From Zanthoxylum bungeanum (lineage: Eukaryota > Streptophyta > Magnoliopsida > Sapindales > Rutaceae), in contig SKCR01031823.1 in NCBI GenBank assembly GCA_019454045.1, positions 62,001-126,000 on the forward strand: a DNA stretch of 64,000 bases, read 5' to 3'. The notes below the pieces were generated by a model. That model did no database searches. It worked only from the letters and a program-made list of their open reading frames with translations, and had not been told where the DNA came from. The position numbers were made by a program, and so were the translations under genes. Below, piece after piece: positions 29,466 through 64,000 of the stretch (within the stretch, counting starts at the first letter, position 1; each line of letters opens with the position of its first letter).

Positions 29466-29796
29466 TCATCTCGCCCGATGATCCTATTGAACGAGGTCGT
29501 AAAGAGTACAACCAGCTCTTAGCCTTAAGGGCAAAAGGGAAGAACTTAAGTCTAATTGTGTCGGTAGTTCCAAACCGGTCATGGAAGGTTGCTACGACCT
29601 CCTCAAATTCTCTAATGTGCACATAAGGATTTTCGCTCTCTAAACCGTGAAAAGTTGGGAGATATTGTATCATCCCAGGTTTAAAATCTATGTATATTGC
29701 ATTAGGAGGAAATATTATGCATGAAGGTGTAGTTATGCGAGTTGGGTGGAGGTACTCTTCAAGAGTCCTCATGGGTAGTCTCTCGTATTCACTCAT
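29466..29796 (-). pseudogene. Athila-2 gag, N-terminal fragment
   Basis: The open frame encodes the beginning of an Athila-type gag: MRTLEEYLHPTR, the PPNAIYIDFKPGMIQYLPTF stretch, then ENPYVHIREFEEVVATF and FPFALKAKSWLYSLRPRSIG, which is the start of the retrotransposon gag domain. The frame is cut after about 110 codons by the Copia-1 LTR at 29465. The upstream part of the element (leader, 29797-30120) is AT-rich, with AAATAAATAAATA runs. The remaining gag and pol would be upstream of the window on the far side of Copia-1. Confidence 0.88.
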
Positions 29797-37438: not shown

Positions 37439-37443
37439 GTAAT
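37439..37443. repeat. Athila-3 target site duplication, left
   Basis: GTAAT directly before the LTR terminus TGATGAG, repeated at 47095-47099 after the terminus GGTCA. Confidence 0.96.
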
Positions 37444-37680
37444 TGATGAGTGGTAAATCTATCACTATTTCCCAATTATTTAACTTAATATTTTGTATAG
37501 GTTCTTGAGTTTGTGAATATTTTGATGTGTTTTATGTTATTTTGTAGATAAATAAAGTTTCAGGACACTCTGGAGGTGATTTGGGCCAAAATAGTGAAAA
37601 TTGGACGAAAATGGCATTTTGGTAATTTTCCGCGTCGCGACGCCTAACATGCGCCGAACAGTGCTAACAAGCTCCGAGTC

Positions 37681-38069
37681 CACGTGTCAGAATCTGAGAA
37701 AAGTTTGACTTTACTAACGTGCGTCGTGCCACGTGTCACCATCACAGCCGATCTACTAACATGCGTCGTGCCACGTGCCATCATCCTACGGTGCCGACAT
37801 TCACCATCGCCACGTGTCACTCCACCTGTCAGCCACGTCATTGTCCACATCATCAGTTGACCGAGTCAACATGCCACCTCACCGCCACGTCATCATCAAC
37901 CAATCAGGAAGTGCCCCGAGTCACCGCCACATCACCACCACGTCAGCGCCATGTCAGCATCAATTATTGGCTCTCTTATCCCTATATGACATGTGGCGGA
38001 TAAGAATCAAGCCGACCATCAGAAGCCGCCACGTGTCACATAATTGAGCCCCAACCACCTTGCCACGTG
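37681..38069 (+). promoter_or_regulatory. Cluster of nine ACGT-core (G-box and C/UPRE-type) sites in the Athila-3 U3
   Basis: CACGTG occurs at 37681, 37730, 37772, 37811, 38030 and 38064, mostly as GCCACGTGTCA. CACGTCA occurs at 37834, 37886 and 37939. These are binding sites for plant bZIP factors: CACGTG with flanking GCC/GTC is the abscisic-acid response type, while CCACGTCA is the type used in stress and unfolded-protein responses. TTGACC (W-box core) at 37857 is also present. They lie 120-510 bp upstream of the TATA box. The sites are seen directly; responsiveness is inferred. Confidence 0.8.
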
Positions 38070-38188
38070 TCACCTTATCACCTTATCCAGAATCTGCAAC
38101 CGACGAACCAGAGCGTGCCACATCGAGAGAAGCTGGCGTAGCGAGGCCAAAGGCCTTGGCGTCGCGACGCTAGAACCCCACCGAGGCC

Positions 38189-38195
38189 TATAAAT
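38189..38195 (+). promoter_or_regulatory. TATA box of the Athila-3 5' LTR
   Basis: TATAAAT lies in GAGGCCTATAAATTGAGC; the start would be near 38220 in the CT-rich stretch. The corresponding sequence is deleted from the 3' LTR. Confidence 0.75.
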
Positions 38196-39597
38196 TGAGC
38201 TCGAGATTTCAGTTTCAGTTGTACCACTCTCTCTCATCTCTTTGATGTAAAGAGGGAGTTTCTCTCTCTAGTTTCTTTTAGTTTTTAGTTTTTAGTTTTG
38301 TAATTAATTTTAATTACGTTTTGTAATAATAGTAATTTACTTTTTTACTTTTTACAGTTTTTACTATTCACCATGAGGAGGTAACTTCCCCAGCTAGGGT
38401 GAAAGGTAATTCTTTTACTATTGCTATTTAAATTAATCTCCCTTAAATATAATATATTCATTATTTAAAATATTGACTTAAAAAGGATACCGCCAGATGG
38501 TCGGGTTGGTAATTCATTTTAATCTGGTTTAAACCTGAATAATCAAGGATACCACCAGATTGGTCGGTTGGTAATTAAACTTTCTTACCGCCTATATGGC
38601 AGGTTCATGGACAAATCTTTTTACCGCCTTAATGGCTGGTTGGACTTAATTTGACTTTATCAGGATACCGCCATATTGCTGGTTGGTAATGTTATCACAA
38701 GTTTTATATTATATTAGGAGATATCTAATTTAGTATTAGTAAAAGCAATTCCTTTTACCTTAGCATTTTTTTATTGTAATTTACTTTTCAGTATTTACTT
38801 TACCGCATTTTTACTTTATGTATTTTATTTTCAAGTTTTACTAGCCCTAGTTATGTGTTGACAAAACTTAGTTATCTGGGGTTGTGATGACTTTTAATAT
38901 CCGGTTTATAAGGGGTTAGATATTAGTTTGGGTATTATAAAGATTTATTTATTGAGTCTTAATCTTAATGCTTTTTCATTAACTGACCATAATAATAAAA
39001 TTGATCTGGTAAATCTAAAATGAACTAGACATAGGGATTTTAGGTTTCAGCCTTAGACTCAATAGCCCACGATCTTCCTTGAGGATAGATAACCCTTTAA
39101 TAGATTTCCTTACAGGATAGACATATACCTGTTGGGCGGGGGTGGGGTAGCCATAATTGAAACTTAAACTTAATGAATCCAGATAATTTGGTTGACATAG
39201 ACATATGGTTCAATTGGGTTACACCTGATATTTGTGTCTGACCATCGACAGAGGCTTACACATAATTTAGTGTTCTAAGTTAATAAATCAATATATTACC
39301 CAACTTTAAGATAACCACTTCATCTTTAAAATGATATGGAAGAAATCACAACCCTAGATAGTTTTTAATATTGAATTTTCTTAAAACCTACTTTCGAATA
39401 ATTTTATTTTCTTGTTTTTAAATTTAGAATCGTCACCATTTCAAATCAATCAAACAACCTGTTAGATACTAGTAATCATTTGACCTCATAAAATTAAGAG
39501 ATTAGATATTAAGTCCTCATGGGATCGATATTTTTATACTACTTGAATGATACGCGCGCTTGCGTTATACGCGTGTGATTACGCACCGGTCAAGTTT

Positions 39598-39616
39598 TTG
39601 CGCCGTTGCCAGGGAC
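39598..39616 (+). other. Athila-3 primer-binding site
   Basis: TTGCGCCGTTGCCAGGGAC, a few bases after the LTR end, matches the aspartate-tRNA type with small changes (compare Athila-2 at 30122-30139). Confidence 0.85.
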
Positions 39617-39721: not shown

Positions 39722-41300
39722 ATGAGACGAACCAGAAGCTTTGAACTTCGACCGCTTGACCCGGAAATTGAAAGAACCATCAGAAAGTTGAGAAGGGAAA
39801 GACGAGAAGGCCAAGAAGCTTTAGTCAACATGGAACCTGAACCGTTGGAGGTTGCACCACCAATTCCCATTCGAGACAGAACCATTCCGGTGGTTGACAG
39901 ACTCATTTCCTGTATTGTACTTCCTCTTTTACCAGCAAATGCGTGTGATATCAAAACATGCATTCAAATGATTCAGCAGTCAGTTCAGTTCAGTTCAGGG
40001 GGAATGCAACTGAAGATCCTAATGCCCACATCAGTAACTTCCTGGAAGTTTACGGAACTTTCAACTACAACAGAGCATCAAAAAGAAGCAATGAGACTGC
40101 GAGTTTTCCATATTCCTTGAAAGACAGAGCAAAAGCTTGGCTACATTCACTACCAACAGGTTCTATCACAACTTGGAACACTTTAGCCACCAAATTTATT
40201 GCAAAGTACTTTCCACCAGCCAGAACCGGAAAGCTGAGGAATGACATCACATCCTTTGTACAACAAGATTCAGAATCCCTCTGCGAAGCTTGGGAAAGAT
40301 TCAAAGATTTACTCCGGAAATGTCCTCACCATGAAATTCCAAAATGGCTTCAAGTCCAAACATTCTATAATGGACTTTCTGGAATAATGAGAACCACAAT
40401 CGATGCTGCTGCTGGAGGAGCTTTAATGGAAAAATGAGAAGATCAAGCCTGGGACATAATCGAAGAAATGGCCAACAACAATTCCTTGTGGCCAACAGAA
40501 ATGAGCATGATCCAAAGAATTGCAATAATTTATGAAAGTGGAGCCAATACAGCAGTCAATGCCAAGCTAGATCAGATATGCAAATTCATGGAGACTCTTA
40601 CCACTGGATCCACAAGTTCACCATATAGAGGAGCACCAGAGTCGAACCAACTTGAAGAGATGGTGAATTATGTCAACAATTTCAACAGACAGAGGAACAA
40701 TCCATATTCCAACACCTACAACCCAGGGTGGAGGAATCATCCCAATTTTTCATGGAGCAACAATTCAGGCCTACAGCAGAACTATCCACCACCTGAATTC
40801 CAGCAACAGAACAAAGGCAAGTAGCAGGAAAATGAACCAGGAATAACAGAAGTGTTGACCCACTTGAAAAATATAGAAGCAAAACACGACTCTCAAGCAG
40901 CAAAATATGATGCTATGTTTCAATCTCAAGCAGCAAGATATGATACTATGTTTCAATCCCAAGCAGCATTAATTCAAAGTCAATCTGCTTCTATTAAAGC
41001 ACTGGAGAATCAAATTGGACAACTGGCAAATGCTCAGAGTTACAGACCGCCATGTACCCTTCCTAGCAACACAGAGCCAAATCCAAGGAACATGGGGAAT
41101 GAGCAATGTCATGCCATCATATTAAAAAGTGGTACTGAAATCAACAAAGATGTTGGAGCCAAAACAGCTGTTGAAGAAGTTCCAAAAGACACAAAGCAAC
41201 AGATGGAGGAAAAAGAAGCAAAGGAAAAAGAACAGATCATTCCACCTCCACCTTTTCCTCAACGTCTTCAGAAGAAAAAATTGGACAAGCAGTTTTCTCG
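39722..41300 (+). pseudogene. Athila-3 gag (frameshifted, with stops)
   Basis: Capsid protein of an Athila-type element. The first frame starts at ATG 39722. A shift near 39990 moves to the frame reading EDPNAHISNFLEVYGTFNYN, SLKDRAKAWLHSLPTGSITT, FPPARTGKLRNDITSFVQQ, CEAWERFKDLLRKCPHHEIP and FYNGLSGIMRTTIDAAAGG, a clear retrotransposon gag domain. An in-frame TGA at 40435 and TAG at 40822 follow. The C-terminal part has three short repeats around SQAAKYD / SQAARYD / SQAALIQ and the segment ALENQIGQLANAQ common in Athila. No standard CCHC knuckle is visible. The true protein would start at 39722; the upstream GTG is not a start. Confidence 0.92.
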
Positions 41301-42075
41301 GTTCCTGGAGATCTTCAAAAAGCTGCATATCAACATTCCATTTGCAGAAGCGTTGGAACAAATGCCCAGCTATGCCAAATTTATGAAAGACATTCTTTCA
41401 CGAAAGCGGAGATTGGGAGATTACGAGACAGTAGCATTATCAGAAGAATGCAGCGCTATCATTCAGAGGAAACTTCCCCCAATGTTGAAAGATCCTGGCA
41501 GTTTCATTGTTCCTTGCACCATAAGAGAACATGACTTCGGTAAGGCTCTGTGTGATTTAGGGGCGAATGTTAACTTGATGCCTTTTTTCTATTTTCAGGA
41601 AATTACAGATTGGAGAAACAATGCCCACCTCAGTCTCTCTACAACTTGCTGATAGAACGCTCGTATTTTCGAGAGGTGTAGTTGAAGATGTGATAGTCAA
41701 GGTTGACAAATTCATTTTCCCAGCAGATTTTATTATCCTTGATATGGAGGAAGACGTAGACGTGCCAATTATCCTCGGGAGACCATTCTTGGCTACAGTT
41801 CTGACCATTATTGATGTACAAAAAAGAGAATTAACCATGAGGGTACATGACCAAGAAGTAACATTCAATGTTTTCAAGGCCATGAATTTCCCAGATGATG
41901 AAAAGAATGAGGAATGTTTCAAACTTGATGTGATACACAGTACCATTCAGAACTCCAATGCAATGAAAAGTTCTATTGACAAACTTAAAACATGTCAATC
42001 GCCTGTGGAGCCTGAAGATAAAACATCTTTTGCACTGAAAAAGCCAATTCTTGCATTACAAGCAACCGAAGAGAA
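41301..42075 (+). pseudogene. Athila-3 aspartic protease region (frameshifted)
   Basis: The segment leading in reads INIPFAEALEQMPSYAKFMK and LPPMLKDPGSFIVPCTI, both typical of Athila before the protease. The active-site motif is CDLGANVNLMP, the Athila variant in which DLGA replaces the usual D-S/T-G triad. The flap and second half follow as SLQLADRTLVFSRGVVEDV, FILDMEEDVDVPIILGRPFL and KRELTMRVHDQEVTFNVFKA. A shift near 41590 separates the two halves. The polyprotein would normally continue into RT; here it runs straight into an integrase tail. Confidence 0.9.
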
Positions 42076-42430
42076 AAAGATCCACCAACTCAACGAATTG
42101 GAGGAATTTTACAATCATCCTTTTGAGAATGCCAAATTGTATAAAGAAAAGGGCAAGAAGAGACATGATAAGAAGTTAGTGCGCATACAACTGGAACCAG
42201 GGAAGAAGGTACTGTTAAACAAATCAAGGGTGAAATTCTTCCCATGGAAGCCAAAATCACGGTGGTCAGGTCCATTTGTGATCACCAAAGTTTTACCAGA
42301 CAGAGCCGTTGAGATACATGATCCTGACTCCAACAAAACTTTCAAGGTTAAAAACAAACGTGTCAAGCACTACTGGGGAGAATCATTTGAGCGACAAAAA
42401 GAAAGTGTTACACTTTCAGATCCAGCTTAA
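42076..42430 (+). pseudogene. Integrase C-terminal tail fused in frame to protease
   Basis: After the protease the same frame reads QLNELEEFYNHPFENAKLYK, then PGKKVLLNKSRVKFFPWKPK and SRWSGPFVITKVLPDRAVEI, then KTFKVKNKRVKHYWGE, ending at TAA 42428-42430. This is the GPY/F-type C-terminal part of Athila integrase (the GPF triplet is present). RT, RNase H, the zinc finger and the DDE core are absent. Because the join stays in frame it looks like an old structural deletion in the lineage rather than random decay of this copy. The remaining product would be gag-protease plus a DNA-binding tail. Confidence 0.9.
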
Positions 42431-42569: not shown

Positions 42570-43118
42570 ATGGAAGAAGCTCTCGCAAATCTTCGCAAGC
42601 AATTTTCTTCCCTTCCTCAAAAATCTCTGATGAAAGTCTACAAATCTCGCTTGGAACCGATGAGATGACTGATGATCAAAGGTATTCCTACTGACATTTG
42701 TTGGTTAATTGAAGCACGGGTTCGATTGGCAGGTGAGTCTTCTGACTCTTTTATATCACATCTGCCTAGTTTAGGAAAGATCACATATGCTAAAAAGAGA
42801 AGAGCCAAAAGAATGTGTGTTTGTTATAAATGTGCTCGCATGTTTTGTAATACTCGTTGTTGTTCTTTAGGAATGGTGTCCGATAATCGCGAAGATAAGA
42901 TTAACTTCATTTGGGATGGCTTGAGTAAGGAGTCTTTGGATGACATATCTAAAACTCTTGAGACGCATCCCAGTGGATGTGTGTATCATGAAATTCGCAT
43001 GTTATATGCACAATTATAAAAGGAAAGACAAATGTTAAGTCTCGGGAATCTGACTCAAAAAGACCATGTTTGCCAATTTATAAGAAAATTGGATAGGAAG
43101 CTTGTCCCTGACGCATAG
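42570..43118 (+). pseudogene. Cysteine-rich basic protein resembling plant-virus NABP (carlavirus-like), with two stops
   Basis: A single frame of 182 codons, broken by TGA at 42666-42668 and TAA at 43017-43019. The part after the second ATG (42672, 115 residues) has an N-terminal helix-like segment, then a basic cluster at residues 41-47 (KKRRAKR) preceded by TY. Cysteines follow at 49, 51, 54, 59, 63 and 64, then a glycine/asparagine turn and an INFIW segment. A hydrophobic helix, an arginine/lysine cluster next to a compact cysteine finger, and a C-terminal hydrophobic strand, in that order and size, are how I know the nucleic-acid-binding proteins of carlaviruses and relatives (Pfam Viral_NABP). 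Those proteins bind nucleic acid and in several viruses affect RNA silencing. The match is by pattern recognition only. The alternative is an unknown plant or env-like protein. Confidence 0.6.
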
Positions 43119-43313
43119 ACGTCAATCAAGCCGTTACTTTTCTTGTAAATATTATATCTCTTTGTCTTTTCTTAATAATTGCGATTTGTTTTGTTGTTTT
43201 CTTTTATTTTCTCCGACATGATCCAGACCTTTTTTATTATCATGATATTATTTTATTATTTTTCTACTAATCGTCCTTTGGAAGATACTTGTGCTATTTT
43301 TACTCACCCTTTT

Positions 43314-43316
43314 CAG
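43314..43316 (+). other. Putative 3' splice site before the LOG-like frame
   Basis: A very T-rich stretch (43140-43313) ends in TTTTCAG, followed by G, 53 nt before the LOG-like ATG. It may allow a second spliced RNA from the LTR promoter. Confidence 0.45.
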
Positions 43317-43368
43317 GTATTATAAATTCAACTCATCATTGCACTTTTGAAGACATCTAGAGTAAAAC

Positions 43369-44009
43369 ATGGAATCCACTTCAAGAGGACGAGTTGAAAA
43401 CATCTGTGTGTTTTGCGGTAGTAGTGTTGGTACTAAACCACAATACTTAGAAGCAGCACAAGAATTGGGTCGAGTTTTAGCTGTAAGAAATATGCACTTA
43501 GTATATGGCGGAGGCAATCTTGGACTTATGGGGATCGTTTCAAAGGCCCTACAAGAAGGAGGCAGTCACATTTTGGGAATCATCCCAAAACCCTTGGCAG
43601 AGGCAAATCTTATTGAACCATCAAACAGAGAGGAACTGATCGTGCCAGGTATGTCTGAACGACTGGTAGAAATGATTAACCGTGCTGATGCTTTTATTGC
43701 TTTGCTAGGTGGCTTGGGTACACTGGAGGAAATTTTTATTGTGCTATCTTGGGCGAAACTAAACATACACCAGAAACCAATTGGGCTGTTTAACGTTGAT
43801 GGATTTTATGATTTTCTTTGTGTGTTTCTTGATGATGCCTGGAGAAATGGGTTCGTGTCTAAACCTTTGAAACCAATTGGGTTGCTCCGGATCTAATAGA
43901 CCAACTCTTAGCCTATGAACCACAAGTTGACCATATCCTTTCAAAGATAAATTGGTCTGAGGACGATCATGGTAAGAGGCGTCAGATTAATCTGGATCTT
44001 AACCTTTAA
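43369..44009 (+). pseudogene. LOG-like cytokinin riboside 5'-monophosphate phosphoribohydrolase, frameshifted
   Basis: LOG enzymes cleave ribose 5-phosphate from cytokinin nucleotides, giving the active free base. The frame is open for 175 residues. It shows ENICVFCGSSVGTKPQY (nucleotide-binding start), LVYGGGNLGLMGIVSKAL (residues 44-61), LGIIPKPL, R98 in MSERLVEM, and the LOG motif at residues 113-121 (LGGLGTLEE, with E121). IHQKPIGLFNVDGFYD follows. The first residue of the usual PGGxGTxxE motif is Leu (codon CTA 43705-43707), one C-to-T step from Pro. A one-base shift near 43880 moves the last ~43 codons (WVAPDLIDQLLAYEP, then LSKINWS) to another frame ending at TAA 44007-44009. The C-terminus is LDLNL. 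Full length (about 213 codons) fits LOG. There are no introns, unlike plant LOG genes, so it is probably a retro-copied host gene. Confidence 0.92.
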
Positions 44010-44548
44010 TTTCCTGTATAATTTCAGCTAACCAGGTACTATCTTCTAAACTCTTCTTCTACTGTTTAAGACATTGGGGACAATGTCTCATTTAGGTTTG
44101 GGAGAGGGAATTAGTTGATCAGTACCTTGTTTTTAGTCTGTGTGATATTTTTTTTTTTTTATTCCTAAATTTTTCGAAAAATACAAAAAAAAAAAATTTT
44201 GAAAAATTTTCAAAAATTACAAAAAATAAATTTGTGTTTTTGTGTTTTTATTTTGACTAAAAATGGTGAAATTGGTGAGAGATAGCTGAGTAAGGAGTTC
44301 TCACTCCTGATACGTATCTCAAACCTATTTCGGAACAAGTTAATTTTTGTTTATTTCCTTTTGAATTATTTAATTTGTGAATTCTCCATAATACGGACTA
44401 AAATGGATCTTCATATCTTCAGTTAGCAGATATTATCAACATACATAGAAACATACGGACATGAGCTAAAATTGAAAAGTTTGTAATATTCAGTGCTCTA
44501 GTTTAATTGGAGGAAGCATCTCAAAAAGCAATAGAGTAAAAAAAAAAA

Positions 44549-45267: not shown

Positions 45268-45319
45268 ATTTTATAATGATATTTTATTTTGTGTTTTGCT
45301 CGAGGACTAGCAAAATGTT

Positions 45320-45332
45320 AGGTTTGGGGGTG
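45320..45332 (+). other. Athila-3 polypurine tract
   Basis: AGGTTTGGGGGTG lies directly before the 3' LTR start TGATGAG. A weaker copy lies upstream at about 44093. Confidence 0.8.
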
Positions 45333-47094
45333 TGATGAGTGGTAAATCTATCACTATTTCTCAATCATTTAACTTAATATTTTGTATAGTTTCTTGAGTT
45401 TTGTGAATATTTTGATGTGTTTTGTGTTATTTTGTAGATAAATAAAGTTTCAAGACACTCTGGAGGTGATTTGGGCCAAAACAGTGAAAATTGGACGAAA
45501 ATGGCATTTTGGTAATTTTCCGCGTCGCGACGCCAAGACCTTCAGAGTCGCGACACCTAACGTACGCCGAACAGTGCTAACGTGCGCCGGGTCTACGTGT
45601 CAGAATCTGAGAAAAGTTTGACTTTGCTAATGTGCACCGTGCCACGTGTCACCATCACAGCCGATCTACTAACATGCGTTGTGCCACGTGTCATCATCAT
45701 ACAGTGCCGACAGTCACCATCGCCACGTGTCGCCACATGTCACTCCACCTTTCGGCCACGTCATCGTCCACATCATCAGTTGACCGAGTCAACATGCCAC
45801 CTCACCGCCACGTCATCATCAGCCAATCAGGAAGTGCCACGTCAACATGCCACGACCAATTTTTACTATTCAACATGAGAAGGTAACTTCCCCAGCTAGG
45901 GTGAAAGGTAATTCTTTTACTATTGCTATTTAGATTAATCTCCCTTAAATATAATATATTCACTATTTAAAATATTGACTTAAAAAGGATACCGCTAGAT
46001 TGGTCGGTTGGTAATTTATTTTAATCTGGTCTAAACCTGACTAATCAAGGATACCGCCAGATTGGTCGGTTGGTAATTAAAATTTCTTACCGCCTATATG
46101 GCAGGTTCATGGACAAATCTTTTTACCACCTTAATGGCTGGTTGGATTTAATTTGACTTAATCAGGAAACCGCCTATATGGCTGGTTGGTAATGTTATCA
46201 CAAGTTTATATATTATATTATAGGAGATATCTAAATTAGTAGTAATAAAAGTAATTCCTTTTACCTTAGCATTTTATTTTATTGTAATTTACTTTTCAGT
46301 ATTTACTTTACCGTATTTTTACTTTATGTCTTTTATTCAAGTTTTTACTAGCCCTAGTTATGTGTTGTAACTAAATTAGTTATCTGGGGTTGTGATGACT
46401 TTTAATATCACCGGTTTATAGGGGTTAGATTATAGTTTGGGTATTATAAAGATTTATTTATTGAGTCTTAATCTTAATGTTTTTTTCATTAACTGACCAT
46501 TAATAAAATTGATCTGGTAAATCTAAAATGAACTAGACATAGGGATTTTAGGTTTCAGCCTTAGACTCAATAGCCCACGATCTCCTTGAGGATAGATAAC
46601 CCTTTAATAGATTTCCTTACGGATAGAGACATATACCTGTCGGGTGGGGGTAGCCATAATTGGAACTTAAACTTAATGAATCCAGATAATTTGGTTGACA
46701 TAGACATATGGTTCAATTGGGTTAAACTGGATATTTGTGTCTGACCATCGACAGAGGCTTACACATAATTTAGTGTTCTAGGTAATAAATCAATTTATTA
46801 CCCAATTTTACGATAACCACTTCATCTTTAAAATGATATTGGAAGAATCACAACCCTAAATAGTTTTTAATATTGAATTTTCTTAAAATCTACTTTCGAA
46901 TAATTTTATTTTCTTGTTTTTAAATTTAGAATCATCACCATTTCAAATCAATCAAACAACCTGTTAGATACTAGTAATCATTTGACCTCATAAAATTAAT
47001 AGATTAGATATCAAGTCCTCGTGGGATCGATATTTTTATACTACTTGAACGATACGTGCGCTTGCGTTATACGCGTGTGATTACGCACCGGTCA
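45333..47094 (+). repeat. Athila-3 3' LTR (1762 bp, promoter deleted)
   Basis: It matches the 5' LTR from both ends, but 37916-38355 of the 5' LTR is replaced by about 20 bp (45839-45858). This removes the TATA box, transcription start and two of the G-boxes. Scattered single differences elsewhere show that the insertion is not recent. Ends ACCGGTCA; GTAAT follows at 47095. Confidence 0.93.
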
Positions 47095-47099
47095 GTAAT

Positions 47100-47395
47100 T
47101 TTTATGGCAAAAATTACTAAGAGCTAGCACTCTAAAGGGTCATCCTAAGGTGATAGGGAACTAATTTCATAAGCATGGAATCACCATATAAAGCTTGGAG
47201 CTTGGAGCATCAATGGAGGACATCCATGGAGCTCAAAACCTGCCCAAAGCCGAGAGCTTCATCACCTTGGAGGAAAAGATTTTTCTTCATCGCATCCAAA
47301 TCGATCAATGTAAGTATGTTTCCGCCGTACTTCTTGAGTATTCACATGAGTTTCATTGCTTGATTTGATTCCGGTTAGACCGTAGAAACCCAACA
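47100..47395 (+). repeat. Copia-2 5' LTR, right end
   Basis: It matches the ends of the family's other LTRs: GCTAGCAC, GGTGATAGGGAA, AAGCTTGGAGCTTGG, TCGATCAATGTAAGTAT, GTATTCACATGAGTTTCAT. It ends CCAACA before the primer site. The left part should lie before 37439, on the other side of Athila-3, but only a short stretch there fits. Confidence 0.75.
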
Positions 47396-48949
47396 ATGGT
47401 AACAGAGCGAGGTTGAGCATGAAACTTGAACTTAGGGTTAAAATTGGGTAAATTGAATTTGAGCATGATTTGATAAAATTCTTTGATTAAGTATGCTTGA
47501 ATGATGTTCAATTGAAGTTGGATGTGATCAATTTCATGAAAATTGATTTGGAACAATTTTCCCCAAATTGGGTTGGCTTGGCCGAATCTAATTGTTGCCC
47601 TAAGTCATGGTATTTTTTGTTTATTTGATCATTGGATGACTTGAAACAATTGGGAAATGTTAATTTGAGATTTAATTGGATTGAATTTGAAATTGGACAT
47701 AAATTCCCTAAAATGCCGTGAGTGTAGTAGCATGGAAAATGGGTTTGATTTTTGATTAAAATGTGTTGGACATGTTTTGATGTTAATGAGCATAATTAAT
47801 TGTACAAACTTGTGTTTTGGAAATGTTAATTTGGGTAATTAATTATGGCATACACTTTAATTAATTAATTGTGAAATTTTGAATTTTGTAAGTTAATTAA
47901 TTGAGCTTATTTTGGAATTGGGTCTTAAAAGTTGTAATTGGGCTTTAATGGGCTTGGTTGTACCAAGATGGGTTTAGGCTAAATTGGTTGGATCCAATTG
48001 GGCCCAAAACCAAATCCATAAAGTCCAATTATGACTAATGGACCTTTAACTTTAATTGGGCCTAATGGGCCTAAATTGGTTTCTTGGCATATAAGGGTGA
48101 TTCCTTAAATGGGCTTTGGTATTTGGGTTTGACCCATATTGACCAAAAGTCAATGCCTTAAAAATTAATTAAAATCCCATTGGACTTTAATTAAATTAAC
48201 ATTGGATGTTAATCGGGCTTTGAGACCCGTAACGATTAGATTTAGAATCTAAGTCGAAAAGGTTCGTTAATAAAGTGTAATATTTAATTTGGAATTAAAT
48301 AATGAATTAGTAGTAAATGCAAATTAAATTGGATTTAATGTTGTAGTTTAATATAATTCAAGAATTCGTACTTTGAGTACTTATTCGCAAAATGAGTTTG
48401 ACTCGCGCAAAATCAAATCGTTGTTTGAACATTGGATGGTCATTAATATTCAGATTAATTATTGGATTAGATTGATTGATAACATGCTTGTGTGAATACA
48501 TGGTTGCGATGCATGAATAATGTATATCGGATGGATATTAGATGGTGGGGACAATTTTGGAAATTGTTGTAATAAATTTAGAATTTATTAATTGGACCTG
48601 CGTGTCCAGCCTATTACCTCCTTTCTCATTGTATTTCTCTTCTCAGCTATTCCCCTCAATGTAAATGAGGTTTCTTTAGAAGTGTTGTGTTGTGTAACAG
48701 GTAGAAGCAATACTTGTGCTAGCAGGAGAGAGGAAAAGAGAGAGAGATTGTTCTAGGACCAATGTGTTAAGTATCCATCCGCATATCATTATTATATTTA
48801 TTTACTTACGCGCCTTATTATGTGTTTAGAATGCATGTTTAAGGGTGTATGATGATGAGACCTTAACAAAGATAATTAATTGGTTGCCAATTGCACGCGA
48901 AAAAGCCTCAACATCATATTAAGCGTTTTTCCTTCCATTGAGTGATTCT

Positions 48950-49360
48950 TACTCAAGATCTAAGACTGGCATTGGTTTGTTGGCCAAAGTCAAGACCTTT
49001 GTCCGTCGAGGATGTGTTTGAATCATGAAGGCTTTGTTCCATATTGGTGTCTTGTCCAAGTTGTGATTTGTTGGCCAAAGTCAAGATCATTTCTTGTCCA
49101 TCGACATTGATTACAAAGCTTTCCAAGGTCAATGTGTTCCGCTTAACTGAGATCACTAAGTTTGTTGTGCCAAAGCCAAGCTTAGTTGATTCAGAGGAAA
49201 AAGGTTAGGCAATATATTGGATATATTGGCATATATAAGATATATGTTTCGGACTTGGATGTCCATCTACTGGATCTAGGAATTGGATGGGATCCAATTG
49301 ATCTTAGAGATCTACCTAGTTAATTATCATACAATTTGTTGGCAAAGTCAAGATTGTGTG
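48950..49360 (+). repeat. TTGGCCAAAGTCAAG repeats in the Copia-2 leader
   Basis: TTTGTTGGCCAAAGTCAAG occurs near 48975 and 49065. Altered copies lie near 49160 (TTGTGCCAAAGCCAAG) and 49335 (TTGGCAAAGTCAAG). Copia-3 has the same arrangement at 58555-58935. Open frames on the opposite strand are not supported as genes. Confidence 0.75.
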
Positions 49361-49439
49361 TTATTTAACGGGATCCTAGCCCACTAGGAAACAAGGTTTC
49401 CCGAGTACTCAACAGAGGGTTAGAGGCTCGCCGAAAAAT

Positions 49440-50460
49440 AGTGGAAGGCAAGTATTAAATTTGCAATATTTGTTTAGTTACTTGCCATACGCGCTCATTC
49501 AAATATTCATCGTCAAATAATATATTAGTTGGACTAATATTTAATTGTTATTTTAAAACAGTTGGACTGTATTCAAACTATTTCATTTATAGTTGATTAT
49601 ATAATTGGATTATAGTAATCAATATATTTGAATTAACTAATTTCAATTAATAGTTGATTTATAATTGGATTATAGTAATCAATATAATTGAATTTAACTA
49701 ATTTAAATTATAGTTGATTATATATGGGACTATAGTAATCATTATATTAAATAGTACCTAAAATCGTTGATTAAATAGTTGGACTATTAGAATCAAGATA
49801 AATTGAAAGATTAGTGTTTAAAACATAATCTTGGGTGAAAATGTATTTAAACGACTTTAATTTTCAAATTGGGAATAAAACTTCAGGATAGTCCTGAAAA
49901 CTAAGAAGTCACTTTATTGGATAAAATAACATCTTAGGCCTAAGCCGGAGTTAAGCAAATAGTAGAACATAATCTTTGGAAGATTCATGTGATGATAACT
50001 TTAGTGCTTAATCCAATAAACTTGCCAAATAGACTCCTTAATTTCTTAATCAGAACTAAGGATTAGATCATTATAAGATGATAATGAAATTGAAGGATCT
50101 TCATAGATCTATCTCTAGATCTTAGAAGTACTAATTGCAATAGTAAACTCTTGGAGAGTTAATGGTTATACTCAAGCAGACAAAGCCAAAGTTTGCAATA
50201 AGGCAAGAAGCGCAAGGCGCACCTTATTTCGACATTCTAGAAGGCCAAGGCTTGGCCAAAGGCTTCTGGGGTACCGAAAAGGGCAAAGGCAAAATCATTA
50301 GAATCTTTTGGGAAGACAAAGGACATATCCCAAAATGTCTGCCTAAATTGTGGCAAACGGGGACACGGAAGCGTGACTGCCGTATGGACAAGGAAGACAT
50401 GAAGGAATTGAAGACGGTGTAAGACTCTGACTTCAAATATGTTTGTCATAAATATGTTCA
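49440..50460 (+). pseudogene. Copia-2 gag remnant
   Basis: Coding traces only. The best is the zinc knuckle around 50338-50375: one frame reads CLNCGKRGH, and the neighbouring frame continues with KRDC, so the CX2CX4HX4C knuckle is split by a base change of frame. The sequence upstream is AT-rich with many stops. The role would have been the nucleocapsid of the copia particle. The left limit is uncertain. Confidence 0.65.
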
Positions 50461-51029
50461 CTACTAGTACTAAAATTGGATTTTAGATACTGGATGTGGT
50501 ACATAAATATGTACTGATGTGCAGAATCTGCTGAGAGCAGGATACTGACTTCAGTTGTGATTAATCTACGAATTGGAAACGAGACGAAAGTCGCTGTTTT
50601 AACTGTAGATACCTAAGTTTAGGAACTACCCTTCGGGTGTGTACTTAAATTAGGAATCTGTTACAATGTAACTAGTTTGACTAGATACATTATCTATATG
50701 TCAGGGTTTAACCCGTTGCGGGTATACCTTTATATTCTAGAACACTAAAGTGTTTTATTTTATAAAGATGATATTGAGATAAACCATTAGATGTGAATAA
50801 CATTATTATATTTTGAATATAAATAAATCTCAAACATATAATGTGACAAACAAATAGCTCAAACTGAATTAATCAGTTGAGACTTATAAGTGGCATTGTT
50901 GTCTGGGACACAATTAAACAAGACTCGTATATCAACACTTTTGAAGAATGGGTACTAGGACAAATTTGATTCCATTCAAATAATGTCTACGAATCTAGTT
51001 TATTGGGCAAAGTGCCTAAAACACTATTT

Positions 51030-51600
51030 ACTTGGTAAAAGTGTAATTGCCACCAATCTGTTAGCCCTGGTTCATAGTGACGTAGGTGGGCCCATATCTA
51101 GCTAGGCTAGATGTGGATATGAATATTTCGTGACCTTTATGGATGTGGCATCACATTATGGTTATATGTTTCTTAATGAAACACAAATCGGAAACTTTTA
51201 GAGTTTCGACACGAAGTAAACAAACAGATCGGCTAAAGTATTAAACCTTCACGGTTAGACCATGATGAAAATACTTAAGCAATAAGTTTCTCAAATACTT
51301 GAAAGAGTATAGTATTCTTTCAATGAGGACTCCTCCCGGAACACGTCAGTTTGACGGTGTTTCCGAATGGAGAAACCGAATTTTGTTGGACATGATAAGG
51401 TTAATCATGAGTCGCTCTGAGCTACCATTTCCTTCAACGGCTATGCATAAAGTGCAGAACTTATTTAGAATAAGGTTCCATAAAAATCTGTTTGACAGAC
51501 TTCATATTCGATATGAACAGGAAAGAAACCGGGTTTTCTCATTCCTGAAGATTCGGGTATGCTAGGCATATGTTTGGATGATACCAAACTAGAACCCAAA
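51030..51600 (+). pseudogene. Copia-2 integrase remnant
   Basis: The integrase core is recognisable by GYEYFVTFMDVASHYGYM (51117-51170, containing the first acidic position). After frame changes comes the segment LKEYSILSMRTPPGTRQF with GVSEWRNRILLDMIRLIMSR (51299-51420), which holds the third catalytic Glu in VSE. Stops between these include TAA at 51234-51236, also present in Copia-3. It is not functional. Confidence 0.8.
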
Positions 51601-51889
51601 TTGGATAAGTGCCTAAGTTGTGGGTTATCCTAGGGATACCAAAGTATAGTACTTATACAACTCACTAGAGAACAATGTAATTGTTGCTCATCATGCGGTT
51701 TTCCTAAGAGGAATACCTATATGTAGTGGTAAGTGGGAGGAACGTAAAACTCGATGAAAATCGGAGTAATAATATTCCAGGCACTGATTCTTTAATGGAA
51801 CATAAATAGTTCATCAAGGATGTAACTCTACCAATAATCTTCGAATACACAAGAACCACGTAAGTCAGAGAGAGTCAGAAAAAAACCTG

Positions 51890-52760
51890 AGGTATGGGTT
51901 TCTGATCTCACCTCGTAAAGATGTCAATCTTATTGAGGAATACGAACTGACTACGTATGAGGAAGTGATACAAGGTATCGACTCCGTATTATGGCAAAGT
52001 GCCATGAAGTCCGAAATGGATTCCATGTATATCAACTATGTTTGGATACTAGTTGATGTACCAAAAGGCATTGTGCCTATTGGTACTATATAAGTCTTCA
52101 AGGAAGACATACATGGAAGGCAACATACCAACGTATTAAGCTAGGCTTGTAACGAAAAGGTATCGTTATCAACATTGTGTCGATTACGACGAAACCTTTT
52201 ACATGTTGCCATGGTAAATCCATTTAGATAATGCTTGCTTTTGTTGCATGTTTCACTTATGAAATATGGCAGCTGGAATGCCAAAATCGTTTTCCTTAAC
52301 GGAAAACTTTAGGAGGATGTTTACAACATCCTGACGGTTTTTATCGTACCAAAACTATCAAACAAGGTCTGCAGGTTATTCGATCCATGGATGGATTGAA
52401 GCAATCACAGAGTTCTTGGAACTATCGTTTTGATGTAATCATAATAGTATATGATTTAATTCAAAAACGAAACTGATTCTTATGTATATATGAGGGTTAG
52501 TGGGAGCGCACTGACAGTGAATGTCGTGTATAATAATGACATGTCATTTCTTGGAAATGACATTCCCATAATACAATCGGTGAAAGCTTGGCTTTCATGA
52601 AAATTCTCCGTAGAATTATTGGGAGAAACAACCTTTATTCTAGGAATAAAGATCTACTGGGATAGATTTAAAATTGTTCATACTCTCCGAGAACTCGTAC
52701 ATTGAAATAAATATACGTGACCTGGTGTCTCATACGCTTTGAACATATGGAGTCATAATC
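51890..52760 (+). pseudogene. Copia-2 reverse transcriptase remnant
   Basis: Traces in several frames: ELTTYEEVIQGIDS near 51950 (N-terminal region), HCVDYDETF near 52175, and GNDIPIIQSVKAWL with ELLGETTFILGIKIYWDR (about 52550-52670), which follow the YVDD box in copia RT. The YVDD itself is not readable. Frameshifts and stops are frequent. Confidence 0.75.
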
Positions 52761-52979
52761 AGGCCAATCCTAGTGATAGTCACTGGATTGATGTTAAGAA
52801 CATCCTTAAATATCTTAGAGATATAAGGATGATGTCTTAAACTATGAAGAATGAGAACTTGAAGTGACTGGGATCACTACTGCAAGTTTCCAAACTGACA
52901 AAAACGACTGTAAGTCGTAACAATGGTACTATAAAGTTTGAATAACGGAACAGTGAGCTGGAAATCTTCCAAGCAAGAT

Positions 52980-53320
52980 ATTGTTACCGAATAAACAACA
53001 AAAGTGGATTATTGCTGCAGCTGAGGCAGCAATAGAAGCCTTCTGGATTGATAATAATCTAATTAGATTAGATGTAATTCAGTTAGCAACTGAGCTAGGC
53101 TACAGCGCAGGCTAAAGATTAATGGTCTCATCAACGATCCAGATATATACTTCGACTATTCATCTGATTCGTTCGGGTCATACATCGTGGTGATGTGATG
53201 ATTGAATAAATCACATCAGATGATAATCATGCAAATCCGCTGACGAAAGTCTTTTCTCAGTAATTTGAGCGAACCGTACATAGTTCGGGTGTAGGACACT
53301 CGAGTGACTGGCTATAGGCC
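52980..53320 (+). pseudogene. Copia-2 RNase H remnant
   Basis: AAEAAIEAFWID near 53020-53055 and the C-terminal segment around HANPLTK (53228-53250), just before the purine tract, correspond to the end of copia pol. Stops are in between. Confidence 0.65.
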
Positions 53321-53331
53321 AAGTGGGAGAT

Positions 53332-54928
53332 TGTTGGATAGTTATGACCCATAGCGTCACTATTTGTACAGATCATGGTGTTGTTGTACAAATTAACTAT
53401 GTGACAAAGGAAATTGCTCTTTTATCATTTGTGATTAGATCACCAAGATGTATAAATGATGAAAGGTCCATATGATTAGTGTTGAGATGATATGATGGTG
53501 AAAGGTCAAGGAAATTGCTCTTTTATCATGGTGTTGAGATGATATGAGACAGTATCAATCCATGAAATTTTAATCATTAAATATCCATAGTCAGAGTATT
53601 ATCGAGATTGGACATCTATAATGCGAAAAAGACTAGTATTACACTTGTGCGCGTTGTGAGGGCATAACGACATAGTTCTCATATATTTGGGTATAGGATA
53701 CTCATGCAAGTGTATTAGGAGGTTGTGTTTTACCGATGGATAGACCCCTCGGAATTCCATTTGTAGTATGACTATGTGTCTATGGAAGTCCGAATCTTGG
53801 TATGTGTATTTGGTCTTAACCTGAGACTGGCACCGCTAATACTTGCGACAATCAATGTACTTTGGTTTTGGTCGTCCAGGGCTTTAACAGGTTCTGTGTA
53901 CGCCTCTTCCGGGTATATTGAGAATCTTAGTGTATTGGGTGTGATGTCGAGATGGAAGTATCACTCCAGTCATAGTGGAGATGATGATCACGTAGGATAC
54001 GAAAATTGTTCTCTTATGTACTGCAGTCATCGGGATAAAATGACTAGTTCATGTTTATCCGATATAGAGACCACTACCAGACATCCGATATGTACTTCGT
54101 ACGGGGCAGACACATTTCCAGCCCCAGGCCTTGCACGTGACATCCGATACTGGATCGAAATACGCAATACTACATATACTACGCCTGATATAGATCACAT
54201 ATTCCAGTAAGAATATTTCTGGAGAATTGGGCAGGCATGACGCTTTGCTAGAAGCCAACCTTGTCTTATAAATCGGTAAAAACGTAGTACTAGGTACTTA
54301 CGTCTTCGGATAGTCCGACGACCGTATTTACTGTCAACATATCCGGGTATCTCATGGGTCACTTCCCGAAGATTCACCGATGACGTATGACTCGCACTTT
54401 ATTAATCTAGGATTAATTAATGATGAGAGAGAAAATTAATCTGGGATTAATTGCGGAAATATTTTATCTGGGATAAAATATTATTTAAAGAGAGAGAACG
54501 ATTAATTTGGAATCAATCAATAAAATAATATATTTGATATATTATACGAAATTGGATTTCGACGCGGAATTGAAATTAGATTTTAATTCGGGCAAACTCC
54601 AAGCTTAATTATGTCGCAACGGAAAATTTGTTAATTTGGAATTAGCGAACCCGAGCCCGGGAGTGTTTGCGGGCGCCTCGCATTGTGAATTTAAGTGCGG
54701 CCTGAAAGTCACATCTAGCGTCAAATCACTAGTTAATCAAGTGATGGAAGTCACATCACTTTGAGTGAAGTGATGTTTGTCATCATTGATTGATGTGAGT
54801 AGTGATGTGAGTGGTTGATAGCATGTAATGCCATTTTGGAGCCAAATTTTGTTGACCTTTTTGAAAGGCTTTTTACAAAATTTTGGTATATATTTTTAAT
54901 TGAATTTAGAAATTAAACATAGTCTATT
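53332..54928 (+). repeat. Copia-2 3' LTR (also the left part of the LTR shared with Copia-3)
   Basis: It starts TGTTGGATAGTTATGACCC after AAGTGGGAGAT. It matches Copia-1 (minus) and Copia-3 LTRs for its first 1.1 kb, with a local duplication near 53440-53540. It stops before its own 3' end at the start of the inverted LTR. The missing end may be 56728-56977. Confidence 0.85.
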
Positions 54929-56727: not shown

Positions 56728-56977
56728 TGATAGGGAAGTCCACCCATGAGCCGGGAATCGTTTCGCAAAGCTTGGAGCTTGATTCTTGGTGATCAAAACC
56801 GAAACCAGTGAGCTGTGACAGTGCTCACTGCCGAGCAGTCCAATGGGCAGAAGTTCAAGTTTTGTTCATTGCCGCGTCGCTCAACCGATCGATGTAAGTA
56901 TTCCGTGACTTCCTCGAATGTATTCACTTATGTTTCATGCTTGTTTATTGATCTTGGGATGCTTAGAATCTCCAACA
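56728..56977 (+). repeat. Copia-3 5' LTR, right end
   Basis: It begins within GATAGGGAAGTCCACCCATG, which corresponds to GATAGGGAA in the other LTRs. It then reads AAGCTTGGAGCTTG and ends TCTCCAACA before the primer site. The main part of the LTR may be 53332-54928, making it an LTR common to Copia-2 and Copia-3. Confidence 0.8.
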
Positions 56978-59900
56978 ATGGTATCAGAGCGATTGAAAAG
57001 CATGAAATTTGATTAAGGCTTAAAATTTGGGTAAAATGAATTTGAGCATGATTTAATGAAATTGGATGAATTAGTATGCTTAAATGTGTTTTAATTAAGT
57101 GTTGATTGGATCAATTTGATGAAATTGTGTTTGGAACAAATTTCCCCAAATTTCTTGTGTTGGCCGAATGGTTGAGAGCCCTATTTGTCTTGGAATTTTT
57201 TGATTTTGATCATTAGATGTGTTGGAAATCATTCGGCAATATGATTTAATGTCGATTGTGGAATTAATTGGATTGAAACCAAATCGGATATAATTTCCCC
57301 ACAAATGCCGAGACTTTGAGCATGTATATGGTTTTGATTTTTGATAAAATGTGTTGGACATGTTATATTGTTGAAGAGCATGATTAATTAGGCTAATTGG
57401 TGTTTTGGAAATGTTAATTGGGTAATTAATTGTGTAATACACTTTAGAATTAATTAGATTGTAAAATTGGATTTTTATGATTTAATTAAATTGGGCCTAT
57501 TTTGTGAAATTGGGCTTAAGTGTTGTAATTGGGCTTATTGGGCTTGGTTGTACCAAGTTGGGTTTAGGCTAAAATGGTTGGATCCAATTGGGCCCAAAAC
57601 CGCCTCCATAAAGCCCAAATGCGACTTAATGGACCTTTAAAGTTTAATTGGGCCTAATGGGCAAAATTGATTTCTGAGCTTATGGGGTAATTCCCGGATT
57701 GGATTTGGTTATTCGGTTTGACCCGAGTTGACCAATAGTCCACGCCTTAAAGAAATTAATTAAAAGCCCATTGGACTTTAATTAAATTGACGTTGGATGT
57801 TAATCGGGCTTTAAGACCCGTAACGATTAAATTTGGAATTTAAGTCGTAAAAGGTTTATTATTAAAGTGTAATGTTTAATTTGGAATTAAATAGTGAATT
57901 AGAATTAAATACATATTAAATTGGATTTAATGTTGTAGTTTAATTTAATTCGAGAATTCGTACTTTGAGTACTTATTCGCAAAACGAGTTTGACTCGAGC
58001 AAAATCAAATCGTTGTTTGAACATTGGATGATCACTAATTATCAGATTAATTAATTTGATTAGATTGATTGATAATATACTTGTGTGAATACATGGTTGC
58101 GATGCATGAATAATGTATATCAGATGGATATTAGATGGGTGAGACAATTTTAGAAATTGTTGTAATAAATTTGATTTATTAAATTGGACATGCGTGTCCA
58201 GCCTTATTACCTCCTTATTCTTTGTATTCTCTTCTCACCTATTCCCCTCAATGTAAATGAGGTTTCTTTAAAAGTGTAGTGTAACGGGTAGAAGTAAATA
58301 CATGTGCTAGCAGGAAAGAGAAATGGAGAGATTTGATCTAGGATCAATGTGTAAAGTATCCATTCGCATATCATTATTATTTTATTATATGCGCTTTATT
58401 ATGTGTTTAGAATGCATGTTTAAGGGTGTATGAAGATGAGACCTTAACAAAGATAATAAATTGGTTGCCAATTTGCATTCGAAAAACCCTCGCAAAATAT
58501 TAAGAGTTTTTCCTTCCATTGAGTGATTCTCACTCAAGATCTAAGACGACATTGGTTTGTTGGCCAAAGTCAAGGCCTTTGTCCGTCGAGGATGTGTTTG
58601 AATCACGAGAGTTTTGTTCCATATTGGTGTCTTGTCCAAGTTGTGGTTTGTTGGCCAAAGTCAAGACCACTTCTTGTCCATCGACATTGATTACGAAGCT
58701 TTCCATGGTCAATAGGTCGCGCTTGACTGGGATCACTAAGTTTGTTATGCCAAAGCCAAGGCTTAGTTGATTCAGAGGAAAAGGTTAGGTAATACATTGG
58801 ATGTATTGACATATATAAGATATATGTTTCGGACTTGGATGTCCCCCTACTGGATCTAGGAATTGGATTGGATCCAATTGATCTTAGAGATCTACCTAGT
58901 TAATTATCATACAATTTGTTGGCCAAAGTCAAGATTGTGTGATATTTAAAGGGATCCTAGCCCACTAGGAAACACGATTTCCCGAGTACTCGACAGAGGG
59001 TTAGAGGCTCGCCGAAAAATAGTGGGAGGCAAGAATTAAATTTCAATATTCGTTTAATTACTTGCCATACGCGCTCATTCATAAAAATCATTCGTCAATT
59101 AAATGTTAGTTGGACTAATATTTAAAACGTTGTTTTAAAACAGTTGGACTGTATTCAAACTATTCATTTATAGTTGATTATATAATTGGATTATAATAAT
59201 CAATATATTTGATCTAATTAATTATAGTTGATTAAATAGTTGGACTGTTATAATCATTATAATAAATAGTACCTAAATCGTTGATTAAATAGTTGGACTA
59301 TTAAAATCAAGATATAATTGAAAAATTGACGTTTAATACATAATCCTAAGGAAAATGTATTTAAATGGTTTAATTTTCAAAATTGGGAATAAAGTTTCAG
59401 GATAGTCCTGAAAACTTATAAGTTACTTTATTTGATAAAATAACATATTAGGCCTAAAGCCCGGAGTTAAGCAAATTGTAGAGCATAATCTTTGGAAGAT
59501 TTATGTGATGATAACTTTAGTGCTTAATCCATTACACTTGTCAATTAGACTCCTTAATTTCTGAATCAGAACTAAGGATTAGATCCTTAAAGTATGATAT
59601 TGAAATTGAAGGATCTTCTTAGATCTATACTAAGATTTTAGAAGTAAAATTGCAATACTTAACTCTTGGAGAATTAATGACTATTCTTAAGGAGACAAAG
59701 TCAAAGTTTGCAATATGGCAAGAAGCGCAAGGCGCACCTGATTTCGATATTCTAGAAATTTGAGGCTTGGCCAAAGGCTACTGGGATGTGAAAAGGGCAA
59801 TGGCAAAATCATTATAATCTTCTGGGAAGATAAAAGGACATATCCCAAAATGTCTGCCTAAATTATGGCAAACGGGATCGCGGAAGCGTGACTGCCGTTT

Positions 59901-62827: not shown

Positions 62828-64000
62828 TGTTGGACAATTATGACCCATAGCGCCACTATTTGTACAAATCATGGTGTTGTTGTACAAATTAACCATGTGA
62901 CAAAGGAGATTACACTATTATCATTTGTGATTAGATCACCTAGATATATAAATGATAGGAGGTCCCTGTGATTTGTTCCTGGATTGAGAATGATATGAGA
63001 CAATATTAGTCCACGAAGGATAAATCATTAAATATCCCTAGTCAGAGCATTATCGAGATTGGACATCGATGAATGCGTAAAAGACTAGTATTACACTTGT
63101 GCGCGTTGTGAGGGCACAACGACATAGTTATCATATATTTGGGTATAGATACTCATGCAAGTGTAATAGGAGGTTGTGTTTTACCGATGGTACGGGAAAC
63201 AGCTTCACTCTGGATAGACCCCCTCGGAATTACATTGGTAGTATGACTATATGTCTATGGAAGTCCGAAATCAGGGTAGGTGTATTTGGTCTTAACCTGA
63301 GACTTGCACCGCTAATACTTGCGACAATCAATATACTTTGGTTGCGATCGTCCAGAACTTTAAAAGGTTCTGTGTACGCCAATACTGGTTATATTGAGAA
63401 TCGTAGTGTGTTGGGTGTGATGTCGAGACAAAAGTGTCAGTCCAGTCATATGGAGTTGATGATCGCGCAGGGATACAAAACTAGTTCTCTAAAAAGGTTG
63501 CAACCGTCGGGATAATATGACTTGGTCATGATTATCCGATAATAAAGAGACTAGTTGCTCGTCATTCAATATATGCTTCATACGGGGCAGACACTGTACC
63601 AGCCCCAGGCCTTGCATGTTATCATTCGATACTGGATCAAAATACGCAGTACTATGTATACTACGCCTGATATAGATCTTATATTCCTGTAAGGATATTT
63701 CTGGAGAATTGGGTAGGCATGCCGCTTTGCTAGAAGCCAACATTGTCTTGTAAATCGGTATAAACGTAGTACTAGGTACTTACGTGTTCGGATAGTCAGA
63801 CGACCGAATTTACTGCCAACATATCCGGGGATCTCTTGGGTTGCTTCCCGAAGATTCACCGATGACGTATGACTCGCACTTTTAATTAATCTGGGATTAA
63901 TTAGATGAGTGAGAAAATTAATATGGGATTAATTGCAGATATATTTTATCTGGGATAAAATATCATTTAAAGAGAGATAACGATTAATTTGGAATTAATC
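62828..64000 (+). repeat. Copia-3 3' LTR (runs off the window)
   Basis: It starts TGTTGGACAATTATGACCC, identical to the start of the Copia-1 LTR (minus strand at 29465). It matches 53332-54540 with indels. AATTAATC(T/C)-type repeats begin at 63890. The end is outside the window. Confidence 0.88.

Follow-up and report, generated by a model that had tools for sequence, protein, structure and literature searches.

A dead LTR retrotransposon of Zanthoxylum bungeanum with broken virus-type NABP and LOG-like frames, and an altered pocket and EAR-like tail in the LOG relatives

In the window, the stretch of 64,000 nucleotides of Zanthoxylum bungeanum DNA that was analysed, two reading frames follow one another in sense orientation between the integrase tail and the 3' LTR of an LTR retrotransposon, one of them resembling the nucleic-acid-binding proteins (NABPs) of plant viruses and the other the cytokinin-activating LOG enzymes (Table 1). 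A sequence-only reading had placed this pair at 42570-44009 within one LTR element, and this is where the two frames lie. The element is bounded by two LTRs with 95.4% identity over 1714 aligned bases (K2P 0.047) and by a 5-bp target-site duplication, GTAAT, that is perfect on both flanks; it thus has the paired LTRs and the target-site duplication of an LTR retrotransposon, and both frames are enclosed in this single bracket. Approximately 390 bp of the 5' LTR, between 37915 and 38346, are missing in the 3' LTR, and the alignment of the two contains several gaps. We take the primer-binding-site-like stretch to be of the tRNA-Asp type.

The gag region, although broken into several frames, matches Retrotrans_gag (PF03732, E 7.1e-25). 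Where a protease-like end is fused to the integrase tail, the former reaches 18.6 bits against RVP_2, under the cut-off of 20.3, and the latter has 43.5% amino-acid identity to its counterpart in a second plant contig, L001, which is described below. Reverse transcriptase, RNase H and integrase core gave no match in the eight window stretches scanned; since these domains are missing and gag is broken, the copy was incapable of autonomous transposition. The window copy is a dead, internally deleted LTR retrotransposon, and it probably belongs to the Athila lineage of Ty3/gypsy elements.

Table 1. Features of the retrotransposon and its two additional frames, in window coordinates
Feature	Position	Strand	Basis or remark
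Target-site duplication GTAAT, left copy	37439..37443	.	same letters as 47095-47099
5' LTR (TG...CA)	37444..39592	+	95.4% identity to 3' LTR
Primer-binding-site-like stretch, directly inside 5' LTR	39597..39616	+	read from sequence
Acceptor-like CAG, first base after	39707	+	rank 2 of 390 AG sites; 15 nt 5' of first gag-region ATG (39722)
gag region, several broken frames	39722..41652	+	Retrotrans_gag match within 39958-40437
Protease-like end fused in frame to integrase C-terminal tail	41621..42430	+	profile scan, L001 comparison
Acceptor-like CAG, first base after	42554	+	rank 7 of 390 AG sites; 16 nt 5' of NABP start
NABP-like frame, 182 codons + stop	42570..43118	+	Pfam, alignment, frame analysis
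Acceptor-like CAG, first base after	43317	+	rank 3 of 390 AG sites; 52 nt 5' of LOG start
LOG-like frame, intronless, family residues 1-170	43369..43896	+	Pfam, structure-sequence search, frame analysis
Remainder of LOG coding, another frame, ends ...INLDLNL then TAA	43884..44009	+	78% identity to P0122 residues 177-217
3' noncoding segment, counterpart L001 2526-2606	44023..44102	+	L001 comparison
Purine-rich, polypurine-tract-like stretch 5' of 3' LTR	45312..45332	+	read from sequence
3' LTR (TG...CA)	45333..47094	+	LTR alignment
Target-site duplication GTAAT, right copy	47095..47099	.	same letters as left copy

The NABP frame opens with an ATG at 42570 and has its family-length end at a TAG (43116-43118), and it is interrupted in frame by a TGA at 42666 and a TAA at 43017, so that its longest open piece is 42672-43019. 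This piece alone exceeds the Pfam cut-offs for both Viral_NABP (E 1.4e-5, 25.6 bits, cut-off 23) and Carla_C4 (E 4e-5, 23.9 bits, cut-off 20.9), which confirms the earlier designation of the frame as a virus-type NABP. In the alignment, a zinc-finger-like Cys cluster adjoins a run of basic residues; the structure model of the protein is poor (pLDDT 55.6).

The first and longer part of the LOG frame (43369-43896) has profile matches to Lysine_decarbox (E 3.9e-32) and LDcluster4 (E 1.1e-16), and among solved structures the closest to it in sequence is that of the Arabidopsis protein At2g37210 (2a33, E 2e-50). The frame breaks near 43880 and the coding continues in another frame to a stop at 44007-44009, which explains why the sequence-only reading had drawn its end at 44009. 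The window LOG keeps the catalytic Arg and Glu, its loop reads LGGLGTLEE in place of PGGxGTxxE, and in its pocket Ser, Leu and Ile stand where His, Lys and Glu would be expected; the LxLxL motif, of EAR type, is present but out of frame. That the window LOG is intronless suggests its derivation from a spliced host mRNA. A tblastn search of the whole window (E up to 1e-3) found no NABP or LOG copy beyond these two frames. Both NABP and LOG are broken in the window copy, and the idea that the element gains from the two frames therefore does not hold for this copy. An independent insertion of LOG with its own target duplication was also considered, on the strength of an imperfect 43-bp repeat on either side of it, with copies starting at 43314 and 44033; scores at least as high were, however, reached by 6 of 469 random pairs, and this weak candidate was not used.

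Acceptor-like sites lie just 5' of both frames and of the first gag-region ATG. They were ranked among the 390 AG sites of the internal region by a simple score for a pyrimidine-rich CAG|G that was devised after the sequence had been viewed, and two random positions matched the ranks of the NABP and LOG sites with P 0.007; the sites of rank 1, 4 and 5 (41599, 43709 and 42871) fall within coding frames. Their position hints at subgenomic RNAs made by splicing, of the kind described for the env-like transcripts of Bagy2 (PMC7264820), and provides a lead. In our proposal, the two accessory proteins would be made from such RNAs.

Relatives of the NABP frame number 324 in the protein database at E up to 0.001, and the best 120 of these were used in our analyses. 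Their most frequent length is 182 aa (45/120), the Cys pattern is found in 105 of the 120, and one cluster among the relatives listed comprises 566 sequences. Carla_C4 was matched by all 33 aligned rows (32 from the 120, plus the window) and Viral_NABP by 30 of the 33, at E up to 0.01. Organism names among those listed include Populus, Xanthoceras, Acer and Rhamnella, and the named relatives of both NABP and LOG presumably all come from rosid plants.

A search of genome contigs for NABP returned one locus, L001 (DAIEQH010000041.1), a plant LTR-element contig of 3330 bp. It is filed publicly under a Candidatus Nomurabacteria MAG, evidently through contamination. Its order is integrase core (rve, E 2.4e-16), integrase tail, intact NABP and 3' noncoding segment, with no chromodomain match on the integrase frame; the NABP passes the cut-off for Viral_NABP (34.2) and falls short of that for Carla_C4 (19.8 versus 20.9). 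It is thus not general that related elements are empty or env-bearing at this place, as L001 has an NABP there. LOG, in contrast, has no match anywhere in L001, whose counterpart of the 3' noncoding segment (2526-2606) follows soon after its NABP; we conclude that L001 is without LOG and that at least one lineage can do without it. The expectation that both frames recur in relatives is accordingly borne out by L001 for an intact NABP after the integrase and not for LOG.

Amino-acid identity between the window and L001 is 67% for NABP and 43.5% for the integrase tail. Over 182 codons the two NABP sequences differ at 55 first, 32 second and 71 third positions, which gives dN 0.255, dS 0.966 and a dN/dS of 0.26 (Nei-Gojobori, with the two window stop codons excluded), a ratio that is rough since dS is high. 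On this single pair of sequences the NABP evolved under purifying selection. In the NABP tree, which is midpoint-rooted and has several weak branches, L001 groups with the window branch (92/84), and two database relatives, P0076 and P0047, lie outside.

We propose that the Cys cluster of the NABP serves to bind nucleic acid and, by analogy, that the protein perhaps shields the RNA of the element from silencing. The best-placed alternative is that the NABP serves the particle or RNA of the element itself, as a packaging factor or chaperone, rather than silencing, a role compatible with any reading of LOG. This is quite possible, somewhat short of an even chance: a Cys cluster adjoining a basic stretch suits general RNA binding, whereas the Pfam families matched are viral, and for one virus cysteine-rich protein of related type suppression of silencing has been shown (PMC12172455). 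The viral cysteine-rich proteins that the NABP resembles have a nuclear signal and a zinc finger (PMC12172455). The Viral_NABP and Carla_C4 proteins of carla-, allexi- and mandariviruses share with the window NABP the Pfam match, the basic stretch and the Cys cluster, but the window NABP is encoded by an LTR element and not by a plant RNA virus, and the similarity is weak (E about 1e-5); two scans of viral contigs returned no virus relatives of it.

For LOG, the window sequence has 2808 matches in the protein database, and by "element-type" we mean the best 120 of these, a label to be read with the fact that the surrounding element is seen for the window copy only. As "canonical" LOGs we used the best 120 matches of Arabidopsis LOG3 (LOG1/LOG3-like, some of them partial) together with two solved Arabidopsis LOGs; these controls represent the LOG1/LOG3-like branch of host LOGs. 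Nearly half of the element-type set, 59 of 120, is 217 aa long, and sequence clusters of up to 81 occur among the listed matches. The model of one element-type protein, P0125 (pLDDT 84.6, pTM 0.82), has the LOG fold, with 2a33 as the nearest solved structure (TMt 0.93), and its residues 204-217 have pLDDT below 50, the tail being predicted as disordered. Three element-type poplar proteins (P0158, P0166 and P0167) carry LOGL10 gene names in public databases.

The two sets differ in the pocket and at the C terminus. Among the 120 best relatives the catalytic Arg (110/120) and Glu (116/120), the Met (114/120) and the Trp (116/120) are largely kept, and the exact PGGxGTxxE motif is found in 96 of 120, fragments counted; the pocket His, Lys and second Glu are found in 23, 12 and 12 of 120, versus 120/120 each in the canonical LOGs. 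These positions can be read against CgLOG, for which PMC4979012 gives Arg99 and Glu122 as catalytic residues, Met96, Lys100 and Glu121 as the adenine site, and Met96, His97, Lys100, Glu125 and Trp129 as the proposed prenyl site. A terminal LxLxL, within two residues of the end, is present in 72 of the 120 element-type LOGs and in 0 of the 120 canonical ones, and no canonical LOG (0/120) has this motif anywhere in its last 15 residues. According to a review, LxLxL is the commoner EAR consensus and EAR motifs lie mostly in the C-terminal quarter of proteins (PMC9956375).

In the tail, a stretch of basic residues precedes leucines that alternate with other residues. Among the 59 sequences with a length of 217 aa, which were chosen without reference to the tail, Leu occupies position -1 in 56, -3 in 57, -5 in 55 and -7 in 51, and Lys occupies -11 in 58 and -10 in 57, while the residues between the leucines vary (Ser, Arg, Asn or His at -2; Ser, Asp, Asn or Thr at -4). 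Tail and pocket were counted against each other after the 120 element-type rows had been filtered for a length of at least 200 aa and a Trp or Cys close to the C terminus, which left 90. Of 74 tailed rows, 64 lack His, Lys and Glu, nine have His only and one, P0169, has all three; of 16 tailless rows, ten have all three, four none and two His only. A tree was built from the window LOG, 93 element-type sequences of 195 aa or more, and 30 canonical ones, taken as every fourth canonical sequence of 205 aa or more; in it the canonical sequences split off as one side with a branch support of 100/100, and the window, P0190 and P0222 occupy three separate branches of the tailed group.

The designation of the frame as a gene for cytokinin activation thus stands as far as the LOG likeness goes, given the Lysine_decarbox match, and not for a plain activator, given how seldom the pocket Lys and Glu are retained and how common the tail is. 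The loss of these two residues together with an EAR-like tail makes the label of cytokinin activator doubtful, and a putative nuclear, corepressor-binding LOG derivative would fit the sequences better. Such a derivative would enter the nucleus and bind corepressors of the TOPLESS type by its tail, and would have an altered nucleotide activity in place of ordinary cytokinin activation.

The opposing reading, in which the LOG of an intact copy is a working cytokinin activator and the element profits from cytokinin through cell division and S phase, is unlikely. It draws on the fold, the phosphate loop and the catalytic Arg and Glu, all of which most of the 120 relatives retain, and on the 10 of 90 rows with a full pocket and no tail. 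Against this, the pocket Lys and Glu are both lost in 73 of the 74 tailed rows, Leu replaces the loop proline in the window copy and in 11 of the 120 listed relatives, and alanine mutants of CgLOG at the tested AMP-binding and catalytic residues, S19A excepted, lost nearly all activity (PMC4979012).

Whether NABP and LOG travel together beyond the window was approached through the sizes of the contigs from which their relatives come, using the longest contig for each listed relative (119 of 120 for NABP, 120 of 120 for LOG). Six sizes were common to both sets: 650, 905, 1018, 1022, 4511 and 8723. The first four were taken as chance since contigs of this size could not accommodate both frames in full. 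When the comparison is confined to contigs of 4 to 100 kb (17 for NABP, 12 for LOG), two exact sizes, 4511 and 8723, are shared, with P 0.0008 and 0.0002 in two runs under random 10% perturbation of sizes; from 1.7 kb up (42 and 36 contigs) the sharing has a P of about 0.04. The same-size partners are P0047 with P0222 and P0076 with P0190. Probably, then, two further contigs hold both NABP and LOG, a circumstantial conclusion based on identical contig sizes. As P0076 and P0047 lie outside the branch that joins L001 and the window, a loss of LOG in L001 is the likelier history, and our first reading of L001, that NABP is older than LOG, is disfavoured by the NABP tree.

Taken as a whole, our account is that the window holds a dead copy of an old Ty3/gypsy family with two accessory genes in its 3' half that function as proposed, and we regard it as evenly balanced between right and wrong. 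Its most specific form is a rosid LTR lineage with a two-protein kit for host manipulation, comprising an NABP that shields from silencing and an EAR-tailed nuclear LOG that hijacks TOPLESS and has a pocket for a different nucleotide; taken together, this form is rather unlikely.

It is highly unlikely that the window LOG alone sits in an element, its relatives elsewhere being for the most part genes of the host plants from a LOG branch of their own. Some relatives are indeed named as LOGL10 genes of Populus, and the protein records come without genomic context, but the clusters among the listed LOG matches are large, up to 81 sequences, the two contigs just described probably also carry NABP, and the domain is reported from Gypsy consensuses of Citrus and Populus (PMC9289625). 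Least likely of all is an accidental capture that left NABP and LOG as functionless passengers of one or a few copies, for although both frames are broken in the window, L001 is without LOG and capture of host genes by LTR elements has been reported, for example in sorghum and for maize Bs1 (PMC7264820), the relatives run to hundreds, many of full length, NABP has a dN/dS of 0.26 and an identical position in L001, and the catalytic residues are retained across divergent LOGs.

LOG in Gypsy elements is already known. PMC9289625, citing Steinbauerova 2011, independently lists the YgdH/LOG domain for Gypsy consensus sequences from two species of Citrus and, once its filter is lifted, from P. trichocarpa; the likeness to our element is a LOG domain in Ty3/gypsy LTR elements, and the text on this domain describes no NABP, pocket change, tail or position. 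The claim that no LTR retrotransposon with this pair had been described thus survives for the pair and not for LOG taken alone. The open-access papers searched yielded no report of NABP in LTR elements, of the NABP-LOG pair or of the LOG tail, although an earlier mention in the data behind PMC9289625 or in Steinbauerova 2011 is possible. What is new here is the pocket change and the EAR-like tail of the LOG relatives.

Other known systems resemble the proposed one in part. Plant LOG1/LOG3 (2a33, At2g37210) share the fold and the catalytic Arg and Glu with the element-type LOGs, as well as PGGxGTxxE with 96 of these 120, whereas the latter mostly have replaced pocket Lys and Glu and add the LxLxL tail. 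Two parasite effectors reported to interact with TOPLESS, in papers that use EAR-motif terms (HaRxL21, PMC7446885; PMC8126959), offer a hypothetical likeness, that of a parasite protein with an EAR-type motif; the LOG derivative is element-encoded, sits on an enzyme fold and is a candidate corepressor binder. Athila/OTA elements can be compared as well: additional ORFs and sizeable non-coding regions occur in most OTA elements, and the domains named as most prominent there are PMD, Transposase_28 and Athila ORF-1 rather than NABP or LOG (PMC6317226). Orchid Gypsy elements have an RNA demethylase ORF, likewise a case of an LTR family retaining an enzyme as an accessory; it is a different enzyme, whose activity was shown (PMC9289625).

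If our account is true, an LTR retrotransposon took up one gene of viral and one of host type and remodelled the latter, as pathogens do with effectors. In the most specific form, the joint occurrence of tail and pocket change across three separated branches would make the kit a transposon-encoded counterpart of pathogen effectors. This bears on the role of extra ORFs in plant Gypsy elements and on whether transposons steer host transcription or silencing by proteins of their own. Element LOGs may also be annotated as host LOGs, as with LOGL10 in poplar, and could distort surveys of cytokinin genes.

Elsewhere in the window, the LTR-like repeat pairs 1874-4975/22026-25102 and 9476-11593/16558-18677, each with approximately 95% identity, are nested one inside the other. 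Large duplicated stretches with 86-88% identity link 47299-53477 with 56883-62973, and these have inverted relatives, for example 28350-29472 versus 62823-63956. The 2-kb interval with the highest G+C (0.56) is 14001-16000, which contains many internal tandem-like repeats.
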